From NCBI RefSeq assembly GCF_010731575.1, contig NZ_AP022617.1, positions 62,001 through 126,000 of the forward strand: a stretch of 64,000 bases of DNA, in the 5' to 3' direction. The DNA comes from Mycolicibacterium monacense (GTDB taxonomy: Bacteria > Actinomycetota > Actinomycetes > Mycobacteriales > Mycobacteriaceae). A program made the translations under genes and the position numbers. Under the pieces are notes generated by a model, which did not search any database, was not told the DNA's origin, and saw only the letters and a list, made by a program, of their open reading frames with translations. Shown one piece after another: positions 6,065 to 10,550 of the stretch (the stretch's first letter is position 1; the number at the start of each line of letters is the position of its first letter).

Positions 6065-6715
6065 ATGAAGGCAATCAGTCGGGTGCTGATCGCGTTGGTG
6101 GCGGCCATCGCGGCTCTGTTCACGAGCACGGGCACCTCCAACGCAGGTCTGGACAACGAGCTCAGCCTGGTCGACGGGCAGGGCCGGACGCTGACGATTC
6201 AGCAGTGGGACACGTTCCTCAACGGGGTGTTCCCGCTGGACCGCAACCGGCTCACCCGTGAGTGGTTCCACTCGGGTCGGGCGAAGTACATCGTGGCCGG
6301 TGAGGGTGCCGAGGACTTCGAGGGTTCACTCGAGCTGGGTTACCAGATCGGCTTCCCCTGGTCGTTGGGTGTGGGCATCAACTTCAGCTACACCACCCCC
6401 AACATCGCCTTCGACGGCCTGGAAGGCGCCAACTTCTTCGACGCCGGCATCGGTAACGAGTTCACCGGCATCGTGACCCCGCCGCTGTTCCCGGGTGTGT
6501 CGATCAGCGCCGACCTGGGCAACGGCCCGGGCATCCAGGAGGTGGCCACCTTCGCCGTCGACGTGGAGGGCGCCGAGGGTGCGGTCGCGGTCTCGAACGC
6601 TCACGGCACGGTGACCGGTGCGGCCGGTGGCGTGCTGCTGCGTCCCTACGCCCGGCTGATCGCCTCGACCGGTGACAGCGTCACCACCTACGGCGAACCC
6701 TGGAACATGAACTGA
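6065..6715 (+). CDS. mspA: MspA-family outer-membrane porin, copy 1
   Basis: Octameric mycomembrane porin for small hydrophilic solutes. 216 residues; signal peptide 1-27 (cleavage after TSNA) then mature GLDNELSLVDGQ, matching MspA. Conserved blocks include QQWDTFLNGVFPLDRN, FHSGRAKYIVAG, GYQIGFPWSLGVGINFSYT and the C-terminus TTYGEPWNMN. Residues 120-134 (EGANFFDAGIGNEFT) align with the MspA constriction loop but lack its paired-Asp sequence; acids are D117, E120, D126 and E132. RBS GGGAGA. First of three tandem copies. Confidence 0.95.
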   Translation: MKAISRVLIALVAAIAALFTSTGTSNAGLDNELSLVDGQGRTLTIQQWDTFLNGVFPLDRNRLTREWFHSGRAKYIVAGEGAEDFEGSLELGYQIGFPWSLGVGINFSYTTPNIAFDGLEGANFFDAGIGNEFTGIVTPPLFPGVSISADLGNGPGIQEVATFAVDVEGAEGAVAVSNAHGTVTGAAGGVLLRPYARLIASTGDSVTTYGEPWNMN

Positions 6716-6733
6716 GTTCCCGGTAGACCGAAG

Positions 6734-6768
6734 GAGCCCCGCGGGTCACGTACCCGCGGGGCTCTTTC
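6734..6768 (+). terminator. intrinsic terminator of porin copy 1
   Basis: GAGCCCCGCGGGT (6734-6746) pairs perfectly with ACCCGCGGGGCTC (6752-6764), 5-nt loop, then TTTCG. Perfect 13-bp stem. Confidence 0.9.
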
Positions 6769-7054
6769 GTGTCTGCCTCCGGTTTGCCGGCGCTGTTCTC
6801 CACCGGCGCGGGCGACGGCGTCGAAGTCCCGCCGGCAGCCGAACCGCCACCTCCCTCTCGTGCCGCCAGGCGTCGGATCAGGCCGACGAAACGTTTGCGA
6901 ATGGAAAAAGTCTGCGCAACGACCGCAAATTCAATTTGTTTCTGATCGCAAAAAGCCTCGCCAACTCGACACGGCTGGGCTGTTTTCTTTTTTAAATAGT
7001 TAATGGTTCGAAGGCCGTAAAAACCCAGGTCAGAGGCCCAAAAGAATGGCTTGT
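6769..7054 (+). other. AT-rich spacer between porins 1 and 2
   Basis: No gene seen. From about 6890 the sequence is unusually AT-rich for this genome, with T runs and a TTTTTTAAATAGTTAATGG segment near 6990. It may hold promoter elements for porin 2, but none is clear enough to call. Confidence 0.5.
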
Positions 7055-7231
7055 CGCTATCTGTTGTCGGTTCTTTTTCGCCCTGTTATGTTTTGCGCGT
7101 CACTGACGATGAGATACGCATGAGACAACTGGTGCGGATTCTCATCGCAGTCACATGTTGGGCTCATGGGTGTGTGGTCTCCAGGCGACCAGGCGCCCGA
7201 CGAAATATTCGGTGCGACAGCTAGGGAGATC
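7055..7231 (+). repeat. duplicated porin 5' region, unit A
   Basis: This 177-bp segment recurs at 8014-8190 before porin 3. The two differ by a few substitutions, a 1-nt deletion (GTTGGGCTCAT versus GTTGGCTCAT) and a compensating 1-nt insertion near the end. Together with the porin frames this shows that copies 2 and 3 arose by duplication of a promoter-plus-gene unit. Porin 1 has a different upstream region. Confidence 0.9.
7120..7224 (+). CDS. 34-codon leader ORF before porin 2
   Basis: ATG 7120 to TAG 7222-7224, beginning MRQLVRILIAVTCW. The stop is followed directly by the porin-2 GGGAGA and lies 7 nt before its ATG, so terminating ribosomes would sit on the porin Shine-Dalgarno. The partner at 8079 has the same length and end despite an internal frame change. 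It could be a coupling or leader peptide; a chance ORF cannot be excluded. The coding evidence is conservation of both ends only. Confidence 0.35.
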   Translation: MRQLVRILIAVTCWAHGCVVSRRPGARRNIRCDS

Positions 7232-7882
7232 ATGAAAGCAATCAGTCGGGTGCTGATCGCGTTGGTGGCGGCCATCGCGGCTCTGTTCACGAGCACGGGC
7301 ACCTCCAACGCAGGTCTGGACAACGAGCTCAGCCTGGTCGACGGGCAGGGCCGGACGCTGACGATTCAGCAGTGGGACACGTTCCTCAACGGGGTGTTCC
7401 CGCTGGACCGCAACCGGCTCACCCGTGAGTGGTTCCACTCGGGTCGGGCGAAGTACATCGTGGCCGGTGAGGGTGCCGAGGACTTCGAGGGTTCACTCGA
7501 GCTGGGTTACCAGATCGGCTTCCCCTGGTCGTTGGGTGTGGGCATCAACTTCAGCTACACCACCCCCAACATCGCCTTCGACGGCCTGGACACGGTGATC
7601 GTGGGTGAGGGTGGAGTTCTTTCACCGTTCGAGGGCATCGTGACGCCGCCGCTGTTCCCGGGTGTGTCGATCAGCGCCGACCTGGGCAACGGCCCGGGCA
7701 TCCAGGAAGTGGCCACCTTCGCCGTCGACGTCACGGGTGCCGACGGAGCGGTTGCGGTTTCGAACGCGCACGGCACGGTGACCGGCGCCGCCGGTGGCGT
7801 GCTGCTGCGTCCCTACGCCCGGCTGATCGCCTCCTCCGGTGACAGCGTCACCACCTACGGCGAACCCTGGAACATGAACTGA
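7232..7882 (+). CDS. MspA-family outer-membrane porin, copy 2
   Basis: 216 residues with the same 27-residue signal peptide and mature start as copy 1. Nearly identical to copies 1 and 3 up to residue 119, then residues 120-134 read DTVIVGEGGVLSPFE, entirely unlike the other two, with acids D117, D120, E126 and E134. After that it is again nearly identical apart from VDVTGADGAV. Because this segment aligns with the MspA eyelet, pore charge and selectivity should differ. RBS GGGAGATC. ATG 7232 is chosen over an in-frame ATG at 7166 because the signal peptide starts there. Confidence 0.95.
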   Translation: MKAISRVLIALVAAIAALFTSTGTSNAGLDNELSLVDGQGRTLTIQQWDTFLNGVFPLDRNRLTREWFHSGRAKYIVAGEGAEDFEGSLELGYQIGFPWSLGVGINFSYTTPNIAFDGLDTVIVGEGGVLSPFEGIVTPPLFPGVSISADLGNGPGIQEVATFAVDVTGADGAVAVSNAHGTVTGAAGGVLLRPYARLIASSGDSVTTYGEPWNMN

Positions 7883-7902
7883 GCCTGGTCCATCGCAGAA
7901 GG

Positions 7903-7936
7903 AGCCCGCGGGTCACTTAACCCGCGGGCTTCTTCT
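7903..7936 (+). terminator. intrinsic terminator of porin copy 2
   Basis: AGCCCGCGGGT (7903-7913) pairs with ACCCGCGGGCT (7920-7930), 6-nt loop, followed by TCTTCTCGTT. Same design as after copy 1, so each porin forms its own transcription unit. Confidence 0.85.
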
Positions 7937-8013
7937 CGTTAAGGACCCGGTAACCCGAGCCGGCCCGATAGGCCAGCGTTTCCGCAGATAGACGGCGTGA
8001 CCGGACGTTCGCG

Positions 8014-8190
8014 CGCTATCTGTTGTCGGTTCTTAGCCGCCCTGTTATGTTTTGCGCGTCACTGACGATGAGATACGCATGAGACAACTGGTGCGGATTC
8101 TCATCGCAGTCACATGTTGGCTCATGGGTGTGTGGTCTCCAGGCGACCAGGCGCCCGAAGACAATATTCGGCGCGACAGCTAGGGAGATC
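8014..8190 (+). repeat. duplicated porin 5' region, unit B
   Basis: Second copy of the 177-bp segment found at 7055-7231, ending at the porin-3 start codon. It carries the same CGCCCTGTTATGTTTTGCGC block, which may include a -10 element (TATGTT), though no start site can be fixed from sequence. Confidence 0.9.
8079..8183 (+). CDS. 34-codon leader ORF before porin 3
   Basis: ATG 8079 to TAG 8181-8183, again starting MRQLVRILIAVTCW and ending at the TAG that abuts the porin Shine-Dalgarno. Relative to the copy before porin 2, a 1-nt loss and a 1-nt gain change the middle residues (here WLMGVWSPGDQAP) but restore the same stop. Possible leader peptide. Confidence 0.35.
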   Translation: MRQLVRILIAVTCWLMGVWSPGDQAPEDNIRRDS

Positions 8191-8841
8191 ATGAAAGCAA
8201 TCAGTCGGGTGCTGATCGCGTTGGTGGCGGCCATCGCGGCTCTGTTCACGAGCACGGGCACCTCCAACGCAGGTCTGGACAACGAGCTCAGCCTGGTCGA
8301 CGGGCAGGGCCGGACGCTGACGATTCAGCAGTGGGACACGTTCCTCAACGGGGTGTTCCCGCTGGACCGCAACCGGCTCACCCGTGAGTGGTTCCACTCG
8401 GGTCGGGCGAAGTACATCGTGGCCGGTGAGGGTGCCGAGGACTTCGAGGGTTCACTCGAGCTGGGTTACCAGATCGGCTTCCCCTGGTCGTTGGGTGTGG
8501 GCATCAACTTCAGCTACACCACCCCCAACATCGCCTTCGACGGCCTGGAAGGCGCCGGCTTCTTCACGCCGGGCATTGGGGACGAGTTCACCGGCATCGT
8601 GACCCCGCCGCTGTTCCCGGGTGTGTCGATCAGCGCCGACCTGGGCAACGGCCCGGGCATCCAGGAGGTGGCCACCTTCGCCGTCGACGTGGAGGGTGCC
8701 GAGGGTGCGGTTGCGGTCTCGAACGCGCATGGCACGGTGACCGGTGCCGCCGGTGGCGTGCTGCTGCGTCCCTACGCCCGGCTGATCGCCTCGACCGGTG
8801 ACAGCGTCACCACCTACGGCGAACCCTGGAACATGAACTGA
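8191..8841 (+). CDS. MspA-family outer-membrane porin, copy 3
   Basis: 216 residues, signal peptide 1-27. Identical to copy 1 in most of the mature chain; the constriction segment 120-134 reads EGAGFFTPGIGDEFT, four changes from copy 1 (N123G, D126T, A127P, N131D). Acids here are D117, E120, D131 and E132. The natural terminator of this copy is split by the downstream IS30-family element, so read-through toward the IS is possible. RBS GGGAGATC. Confidence 0.95.
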   Translation: MKAISRVLIALVAAIAALFTSTGTSNAGLDNELSLVDGQGRTLTIQQWDTFLNGVFPLDRNRLTREWFHSGRAKYIVAGEGAEDFEGSLELGYQIGFPWSLGVGINFSYTTPNIAFDGLEGAGFFTPGIGDEFTGIVTPPLFPGVSISADLGNGPGIQEVATFAVDVEGAEGAVAVSNAHGTVTGAAGGVLLRPYARLIASTGDSVTTYGEPWNMN

Positions 8842-8885
8842 GTTCCATCACGACAGCGAACAGCCCCCGGAGAAAAGCGGGTTCA

Positions 8886-8930
8886 CACGGTCGTCGCAAC
8901 GCTCTCATTTGAGAGGTTGCGGCGACCGTG
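8886..8930 (+). promoter_or_regulatory. hairpin enclosing the IS30 transposase start
   Basis: The 5' arm CACGGTCGTCGCAAC (8886-8900) plus CTCTC (8902-8906) pairs with GAGAG (8911-8915) and TTGCGGCGACCGTG (8917-8930): about 20 bp with one G-U pair, one bulge and a 4-nt loop. The GTG start (8928-8930) and the nearest GAGG Shine-Dalgarno are inside the stem. Transcripts entering from outside would fold and hide the start, a known way of limiting transposase synthesis in other IS families. Confidence 0.6.
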
Positions 8931-10487
8931 TCGTTTTCGGAGGACTGTGTCCGGTTTGGGGATCGGCTAGCGCGGTTGGTTGATGCCGGGGTGCCGGTGA
9001 AGGAGGCGGCGGTCGCTACTGGGGTTTCGCGTGACCGGTGTTATGCGATTCTGCGGGCGATCGGCCGGCCTGTCGGGCAGGCCCGTGGTCGGGGTGAGCG
9101 CGCTGATCAGCGTGGGGTGGCCGACCTGGGTGTGGTCGTGGCCGTATTCAAGGACACCGGTTCGATCCTGCAGGCGGCCACAGCGTGTGGGGTGTCGCAT
9201 TCGACGGCACGCAAACTGTTGGTCGCCGAGGGGCTGGTGACCAGCGGGAAGATCCCGTGGGGCAAGCCCGAGGCGAAACGTCGGTGCTTGGAGCTGTTCG
9301 AGCAGGGTTGGTCCACCGGGGCAGCGGCGCGGGAGGTCGGTGTCAACGTGCGGACCGCGCGGGACTGGCGCAAGGGGATCCGGCACACCAACAACACGCG
9401 GGTTCACCCCGATGGTCGGGTCGTGGACTACACCGACCGGACCGTCTACAAACAGTCGGTGAGCAACCTGATCTGCGATGACACCGGACGGCCGGCCATC
9501 GATGACCGGTATCTGTCGGTCCAGGACCGAGTGGCGATCGCCGATGGCCTCCTCGGGAAGGAGTCGTTACGGACGATCGCCGGGCGGATCGGCAAAAACG
9601 TTTCCACGGTGTCGCGGGAGATTCGTGCGCGCAGCATTGATGGCCGCTATCTGCCGTATCACGCCGATCGGGCGGCTGCCTCGGCCCGGGCTCGGCCCAA
9701 GCAGTCCAAACTGGTGGTCAACGTGGTCCTGCGGGGAGCGGTTGAAGAAGGCCTGTCGCGCAAGCTGTCACCGGAGCAGATCTCCAATCGCCTCCGTCGG
9801 GATCATCCCGACGACGAGAGCATGCAGGTGAGCCACGAAACGATCTACCAAGCCCTCTACTTCCAGGCGCGCGGTGGCCTCAAAAAGGAAGTGCAGCAAG
9901 CACTTCGAACCGGGCGCACCCGACGCAAACCACACCGCAAAGAAGGCGAGCGCTATCAGCGCTTCACCGACCCGATGGTGATGATCAGCGACCGCCCAGC
10001 CGAGGTGGACGACCGTGCGGTTCCCGGGCATTGGGAAGGGGATTTGATCACCGGGGAGAAGAACCAGACCGCGATCGGCACTCTGGTCGAGCGATCGACG
10101 CGCTACACCATGCTGGTGCACCTGCCAGGCGGGCACGACGCCGAATCGGTACGGGATGCACTAATTGCGACTATCAGCACTCTTCCGGCGCATCTGCGTG
10201 GCTCACTGACTTGGGACCAAGGCTGCGAGATGGCAGGGCACAAGCAGTTCACGATGGCCACCGATATGGCCGTGTACTTCTGCGATCCGGCCAGTCCCTG
10301 GCAGCGCGGCAGCAACGAGAACACCAACGGCCTGCTGCGCCAGTACTTCCCCAAAGGCACCGACCTGAGCATCTACGGACCCGAGGACCTCGAACACGTC
10401 GCCCAAGAACTCAACGGCCGCCCACGCAAAACGCTCGGCTGGGATACCCCAGCCGAGCGCCTGCGTGATCTACTACTGACCAATTAA
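8928..10487 (+). CDS. IS30-family transposase
   Basis: Full-length 519-residue DDE transposase. The N-terminal half has several helix-turn-helix segments (VPVKEAAVATGVSRDR; GWSTGAAAREVGVN; LRTIAGRIGKNVSTVSREI). The catalytic core shows Asp372 in GHWEGDLITG, Asp430 in LTWDQGCEM and Glu464 in RGSNENTNGLLRQYFPKG, spacing D-57-D-33-E, typical of IS30. No frameshift, so probably active. GTG start within a hairpin. It catalyses cut/copy of the surrounding element. Confidence 0.93.
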   Translation: MSFSEDCVRFGDRLARLVDAGVPVKEAAVATGVSRDRCYAILRAIGRPVGQARGRGERADQRGVADLGVVVAVFKDTGSILQAATACGVSHSTARKLLVAEGLVTSGKIPWGKPEAKRRCLELFEQGWSTGAAAREVGVNVRTARDWRKGIRHTNNTRVHPDGRVVDYTDRTVYKQSVSNLICDDTGRPAIDDRYLSVQDRVAIADGLLGKESLRTIAGRIGKNVSTVSREIRARSIDGRYLPYHADRAAASARARPKQSKLVVNVVLRGAVEEGLSRKLSPEQISNRLRRDHPDDESMQVSHETIYQALYFQARGGLKKEVQQALRTGRTRRKPHRKEGERYQRFTDPMVMISDRPAEVDDRAVPGHWEGDLITGEKNQTAIGTLVERSTRYTMLVHLPGGHDAESVRDALIATISTLPAHLRGSLTWDQGCEMAGHKQFTMATDMAVYFCDPASPWQRGSNENTNGLLRQYFPKGTDLSIYGPEDLEHVAQELNGRPRKTLGWDTPAERLRDLLLTN

Positions 10488-10550
10488 CCAGCAGTGTTGC
10501 GACGACCCCTCGAAACCGCCGAGTTCCGGGGGCTGTCTCGTTTCCGCAGT

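Follow-up and report, generated by a model that had tools for sequence, protein, structure and literature searches.

Introduction

MspA of Mycolicibacterium smegmatis is the model mycobacterial porin and is widely used as a nanopore, and concerted evolution of tandem gene families in which a variable segment is exempt is a known general phenomenon. Here we describe three tandem MspA-type porin genes of Mycolicibacterium monacense (A, B and C, in order), which share with such families a uniform body and a divergent island. The genes lie in a window of 64,000 nucleotides (nt), by which we mean the whole stretch of DNA that was analysed (GCF_010731575.1, contig NZ_AP022617.1, positions 62,001-126,000 of the forward strand). 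Positions below are window coordinates, and labels of the form Lnnn and Gnnn denote fetched relative loci and genomes, respectively. On balance we think it probable that the three genes reflect concerted evolution of tandem barrels with a loop, L6, that is partly exempt and limited in its charge.

The constriction of MspA consists of D90 and D91, with Gly91 reported in MspD (PMC13098993; papers are cited here by identifier, each for the part of its text that was available). The periplasmic loop L6 of MspA has been placed where the variable segment of A, B and C falls, and a charge-changing exchange, N129E, is described there (PMC2651896). Relative to MspA (PDB 1UUN), the M. monacense porins belong to the same family (A matches over the full length), conserve D90 and have their variable segment at L6, but the loop is 5 residues longer, Gly replaces D91, as reported for MspD (PMC13098993), and there are three tandem copies with different loops. 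PorM1 of M. fortuitum occupies the same mog-porin-mscL setting, and PorM1 and PorM2 show one mature-chain difference, outside the loop, unlike A, B and C (PMC2651896). The mmpA and mmpB genes of the M. abscessus complex are likewise tandem Msp porins that often recombine, with an mmpA/mmpB fusion in 312 of 1,382 isolates. The outcomes described there are fusion, deletion or indels (PMC8317493), whereas here the copies are all intact and their loops differ. A tandem porin fusion arising within one patient has also been described (PMC10243398). We found no description of a charge-limited loop exempt from homogenisation in mycobacterial porins in the literature searched, which left subscription papers mostly out of reach.

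Results

Divergence along the three porin genes

The porins are head-to-tail genes of 216 codons, all on the + strand:

6065..6715, + strand: porin A, 216 amino acids (aa), MspA family, loop EGANFFDAGIGNEFT
7232..7882, + strand: porin B, 216 aa, MspA family, loop DTVIVGEGGVLSPFE; the mechanically called open reading frame (ORF) starts at 7166
8191..8841, + strand: porin C, 216 aa, MspA family, loop EGAGFFTPGIGDEFT; mechanical GTG start at 8128

All three matched the Pfam MspA profile (PF09203) at 135.7-138.5 bits, against a gathering cut-off of 22.9. Porin A, the copy run against the PDB, aligned through residues 28-216 to residues 1-184 of 1UUN, the entire mature MspA chain (E 1.4e-100). The porins themselves are ordinary MspA family members.

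A reading made from the sequence only had described three near-identical porins differing sharply at residues 120-134, and this was borne out, including the exact loop strings that it quoted. Codons 3-119 carry no nucleotide difference among the three genes, and the sole 5' difference is a silent one in codon 2 of A. We counted 44 nucleotide differences between A and B, with 28 of these within the 45 nt of codons 120-134 (hypergeometric p 3e-26), 16 between A and C, with 10 in the same codons (p 6e-9), and 43 between B and C, with 31 (p 2e-32). The A and C proteins have the same residues everywhere except the loop, and their genes differ downstream of it by 5 changes, all silent. B differs in addition from A and C at residues 168, 171 and 202 and by further silent changes. 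The genes were divided into the following tracts:

6071..6421, + strand: codons 3-119 of A, apparently homogenised 5' tract, zero nt differences from B and C
7238..7588, + strand: codons 3-119 of B, apparently homogenised 5' tract, zero nt differences from A and C
8197..8547, + strand: codons 3-119 of C, apparently homogenised 5' tract, zero nt differences from A and B
6422..6466, + strand: variable stretch of L6 in A (codons 120-134)
7589..7633, + strand: variable stretch of L6 in B (codons 120-134); over the first 21 nt it agrees with a loop of Mycolicibacterium sp. S2-37 at 18 positions
8548..8592, + strand: variable stretch of L6 in C (codons 120-134)
6460..6716 (A), 7627-7883 (B) and 8586-8842 (C), + strand: 3' tract, apparently less recently homogenised; identity to B (the reference) is 93% for A and 94% for C

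Even divergence at silent sites, named beforehand as the outcome that would count against the sequence-only reading, was not seen. Silent divergence among the three genes was 0-0.011 upstream of the loop (zero for B/C), 0.35-0.71 within it and 0.07-0.16 downstream. The difference between the 5' and 3' sides was significant for A/B (Fisher, p 0.0005) and B/C (p 0.001) and not clear for A/C (p 0.086). The two flanks thus appear to be of different age, which points to recombination, and from their sequences the three genes look like mosaics of zones differing in age.

An alternative is that recent copies diverged in the loop by point mutation, with the new residues favoured by positive selection, as had also been suggested. 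The amino acid changes are concentrated in the loop, which is also where entropy peaks among the porins examined (see below). However, the silent sites of the loop have diverged strongly as well, the net charge of the loop is the same in all three proteins, and the ratio of nonsynonymous to synonymous divergence (pN/pS) in the loop is not clearly above 1, with values of 0.53 for A/C, 0.84 for A/B and 1.04 for B/C, the last two near saturation. We consider this explanation highly unlikely. Adenine-directed diversification was also considered and provisionally set aside; the codon changes between A and C are not restricted to adenine.

Position of the variable segment

In the alignment of A to 1UUN, D117 falls on D90 and Gly118 on D91, and both residues are common to A, B and C:

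6413..6415 (A), 7580-7582 (B) and 8539-8541 (C), + strand: codon of D117, the constriction Asp equivalent to MspA D90, followed by Gly where MspA has D91

D117 was invariant in 41 aligned proteins, and by reading, Asp was found at the D90 position in 148 of 149 unique genes. The exception, at 5669 in L042, is a third, divergent porin-like copy in which Gly replaces the constriction Asp. As the variable segment starts three residues past D117, we take it to be part of periplasmic loop L6, beside the constriction and not in the constriction ring, an assignment based on the 1UUN alignment and on the loop position given in PMC2651896. This refines the earlier placement of the segment in the eyelet region. 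An altered constriction ring was also rejected, since D90 is kept and Gly is present at 91 in all three porins, as was a difference in net charge among the three, since the net loop charge is -3 in each of A, B and C. In an AlphaFold monomer model of A, the mean pLDDT was 59.5, with residues 110-154 below 50.

The loop in relatives

Relatives were taken as the best matches to porin A, so the sample leans toward the A type. Among 149 unique full-length genes from the fetched loci, mean entropy in six-residue blocks was 2.84 bits for residues 121-126 and 2.55 bits for 127-132, and blocks outside 115-138 had at most 1.11 bits, making the loop the most variable stretch among the porins examined. 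Our first loop pattern left 8 of the 149 genes unparsed, and later counts used a wider pattern covering 148 genes, which yielded 114 distinct loops. Lys and Arg made up 4 of 2051 loop residues, compared with 947 of 19587 in the remaining mature protein (Fisher, 9e-36), and the other two reading frames of the loop DNA would give 16-27% Lys/Arg. Net charge ranged from -5 to 0 in the 114 distinct loops, with none positive. Given the near absence of Lys and Arg and of any net positive charge, the loop is not unconstrained, even as its sequence and length vary.

Loop divergence against a different-genome control, and its recurrence

As a control for the rate of loop change we used 47 pairs of porins from different genomes with a flank silent divergence of at most 0.2, of which 40 had equal loop length, and took the 90th percentile of the loop/flank ratio; the pairs are not independent of each other. 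The control was applied to 11 pairs picked as cases of interest after the recurrence survey described below. At the 90th percentile, 7.0, 3.2 and 5.1 loop changes were expected for A/B, A/C and B/C, respectively, and 28, 10 and 31 were observed (p 2e-9, 2e-3 and 8e-15). A strong excess was also found in M. bacteremicum (L078, p 5e-8), strain CR10 (L016, 2e-6) and M. chlorophenolicum (L038, 2e-5), and a weak excess in G206, G085 and M. tusciae (p 0.014-0.046).

These values bear on the possibility that the loop is merely fast-evolving and weakly constrained and that recombination played no part. The loop is hypervariable among the porins examined, and in different-genome pairs its silent divergence is 1.1-2.0 times that of the flanks, as such a loop would predict. 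The loop divergence within the window nevertheless exceeds the different-genome control, with the caveat that the control pairs are interdependent, so a fast loop alone is not a sufficient explanation, and the uneven 5' and 3' silent divergence also argues against it. We give this possibility very little credence.

A total of 93 tandem pairs were examined (88 parsed and non-identical, 3 identical and 2 unparsed). Genome groups were defined by shared sequences and record titles, and loops of unequal length were excluded from silent-site and quartet counts. In the recurrence survey, two or more parsed tandem porins were present in 37 genome groups, and in 25 of these at least one pair showed no more than 3% difference beyond the loop. 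When the most significant pair of each of the 25 genomes was considered, seven showed clustering of differences in the loop (p < 2e-4), two had loops of unequal length (no p-value) and two more were nominal. At least one pair with loop-concentrated differences or a loop length change was thus found in 9 of 25 genomes. Loop-concentrated divergence recurs among genomes and is not universal.

M. chlorophenolicum (L038) has about ten tandem porin matches, one of which contains an unreadable residue and a disturbed frame, presumably an assembly or adapter artefact. Its copy number is uncertain as a result, and the disturbed copy inflates some tandem-pair 5' values and same-genome flank silent values (mainly the row 0.2-0.3). 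In L046 and L019, which are the same strain, one porin copy has an in-frame stop codon.

Trans-species grouping and origin of the loops

M. porcinum and strain DL99 each have one porin between mog and mscL and one elsewhere. Outside the loop, all 17 informative mature sites grouped by species and none by locus, while 3 of 3 informative loop sites grouped by locus, as did signal-peptide sites; the bounds of this unconverted island are no tighter than nt 277-431. For M. chlorophenolicum and M. chubuense, one of four gene choices pointed in the same direction (two sites in the loop and two in the mature flanks), one was mixed, and in the other two locus sites outnumbered species sites in the flanks too. 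We also examined 18 same-genome pairs with near-identical flanks and differing loops from 13 genomes. In 6 of these genomes at least one gene had a loop closer to the loop of another genome than to that of its own paralogue, with flanks that were not.

The loops of A and C resemble those of L111, L130 and L115. With the third porin of L111, the A/C comparison had one informative loop site, which was locus-type in one ordering. The first 21 nt of the B loop match the S2-37 loop as listed above, and all other distinct loops match at 13 positions or fewer. Among loops of equal length, that of L007 is nearest to B, with 28 of 60 positions different. A 66-nt query for a donor of the B loop across 396 genus genomes returned a full-length match in the window alone, in a coarse search that also missed the S2-37 loop.

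These observations, together with DNA shared upstream of B and C, bear on a further scenario, in which the genes are young tandem duplicates and recombination with a divergent porin gave B a new loop together with part of its 3' end, and perhaps did likewise in A or C. The shared DNA is as follows:

7055..7203, + strand: upstream region of B, with two blocks (97% and 98%) common to the upstream region of C
8014..8161, + strand: upstream region of C, matching that of B

The zero 5' silent divergence of B and C with an older 3' side, and the shared upstream DNA, fit a recent duplication of a B-type unit with differing 3' ends, and the start of the B loop has a relative in S2-37. On the other hand, the search described above, coarse as it was, revealed no source for the complete B loop, and about 45 bp is short for a confined replacement. 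Loop-concentrated differences also recur elsewhere, and multi-copy arrays are common (two or more porins in 30 of 52 other mog-mscL loci). A recent duplication combined with replacement of the loop is still a serious competitor, chiefly in the case of B, though we rate it as less probable than not.

Genomic setting

The gene order is mprA-mprB-pepD-mog-porins-mscL, and the same order was found in many fetched relatives. A match to porin A was present in 223 of 297 genomes of the genus sample. We tallied the porins at 52 further loci, one for each genome group, at which both mog and mscL could be seen: 22 had one porin, 22 had two, 4 had three and 4 had four. No further MspA-type gene was found in the M. 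monacense genome (6.04 Mb, a single contig listed as 100% complete).

Near-identical tandem repeats can be misassembled, and the contigs of two relatives (L039 and L116) stop inside a porin, which indicates that such repeats are hard to assemble. The window lies within the single 6.04 Mb contig, however, and the three copies are flanked by distinct intergenic sequences, with all frames intact. An assembly artefact is the explanation to which we assign the lowest probability, close to negligible. The contigs of L039/L130 and of L116 end within a porin gene, and near-identical tandem copies possibly break short-read assemblies.

An insertion sequence (IS) element is located between porin C and mscL at 8860-10536, with a transposase ORF at 8928-10487 containing HTH and rve domains and with imperfect 44-nt inverted repeats at its ends (8860-8903 and 10493-10536). 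We take it to be IS30-like, and the genome contains one full copy and a 57% partial relative. The element was considered as a cause of the duplications, an idea that gained no support, as it sits downstream of C and a transposase match was absent at the 52 other mog-mscL loci, 30 of them multi-porin.

Discussion

Recombinational homogenisation of the three porins is supported by the uneven silent divergence and by the excess of loop changes over the different-genome control, and the proposal that gene conversion keeps the barrel uniform has fared well to that extent. We propose that a porin slot between mog and mscL, kept by many relatives, was expanded here to three tandem MspA-type genes, and that exchange among the copies, by unequal crossing-over and gene conversion, would hold the signal peptide, rim and barrel uniform, with conversion the presumed agent. 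Loop L6, which follows directly on the conserved constriction Asp, would partly escape this homogenisation and retain older, divergent versions. There may be two such loop types in the window. One, in A and C, is like loops found in several relatives, and the other, in B, is like the S2-37 loop over its first seven codons. The loop would be free in sequence and length, yet never net positive, as in the 114 distinct loops.

Several observations weigh against this proposal. Neither M. porcinum nor DL99 exceeded the rate control with its two-locus pair (p 0.21 and 0.42). When the least diverged pair of each of the 25 genomes was considered, the loops were identical in 12, of unequal length in 2 and clustered (p < 0.001) in 6. 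The pooled loop/flank silent ratio in 23 equal-length pairs, one per genome, was only 2.9 (Fisher, p 3e-5), compared with the 1.1-2.0 seen between genomes. The trans-genome loop signal was absent in 7 of 13 genomes and in the pair A/C, and within the window was seen for comparisons with B. We also scanned 82 genome pairs that had concerted flanks and loops of equal length. Although each was represented by the quartet that most favoured locus grouping in the loop, 68 came out as species-type, 12 as mixed, 1 as uninformative and 1 as clean locus-type, and no clean case besides M. porcinum/DL99 emerged. A comparison of A and C with L111 (its first two porins) had 4 informative sites in the loop, and all 4 grouped by species. 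Finally, a gapped alignment of the whole loop placed L005, not S2-37, nearest to B.

If concerted evolution with a partly exempt loop is correct, the outcome would be three pores with the same barrel and D90 ring and different periplasmic exits. The loop differences would then likely tune the passage of neutral or bulky solutes and the stability of the pore rather than charge selectivity. A 2009 study by Huff of what the periplasmic loop of MspA does reportedly found an effect of L6 on pore stability and on the passage of neutral solutes.

Hetero-octamers form when MspA variants are produced together (PMC10915164), and a structurally similar porin of Nocardia farcinica is built from two different subunits (PMC7824896), from which mixed pores of A, B and C may be feasible in principle. 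A more speculative idea, which we judge unlikely, is that the three subunits co-assemble through their identical rim and barrel into mixed octamers whose mouths combine different loops, so that concerted evolution would maintain interchangeable subunits and the loop would supply a combinatorial pore repertoire. If true, 834 distinct rings would be available in principle (hand count).

For the family, the 114 natural loop versions, which stand beside the constriction of a near-constant barrel and have scarcely any positive charge, offer a ready series for probing loop function. They also invite the question of why a single short segment is so often spared, or exchanged, by recombination.

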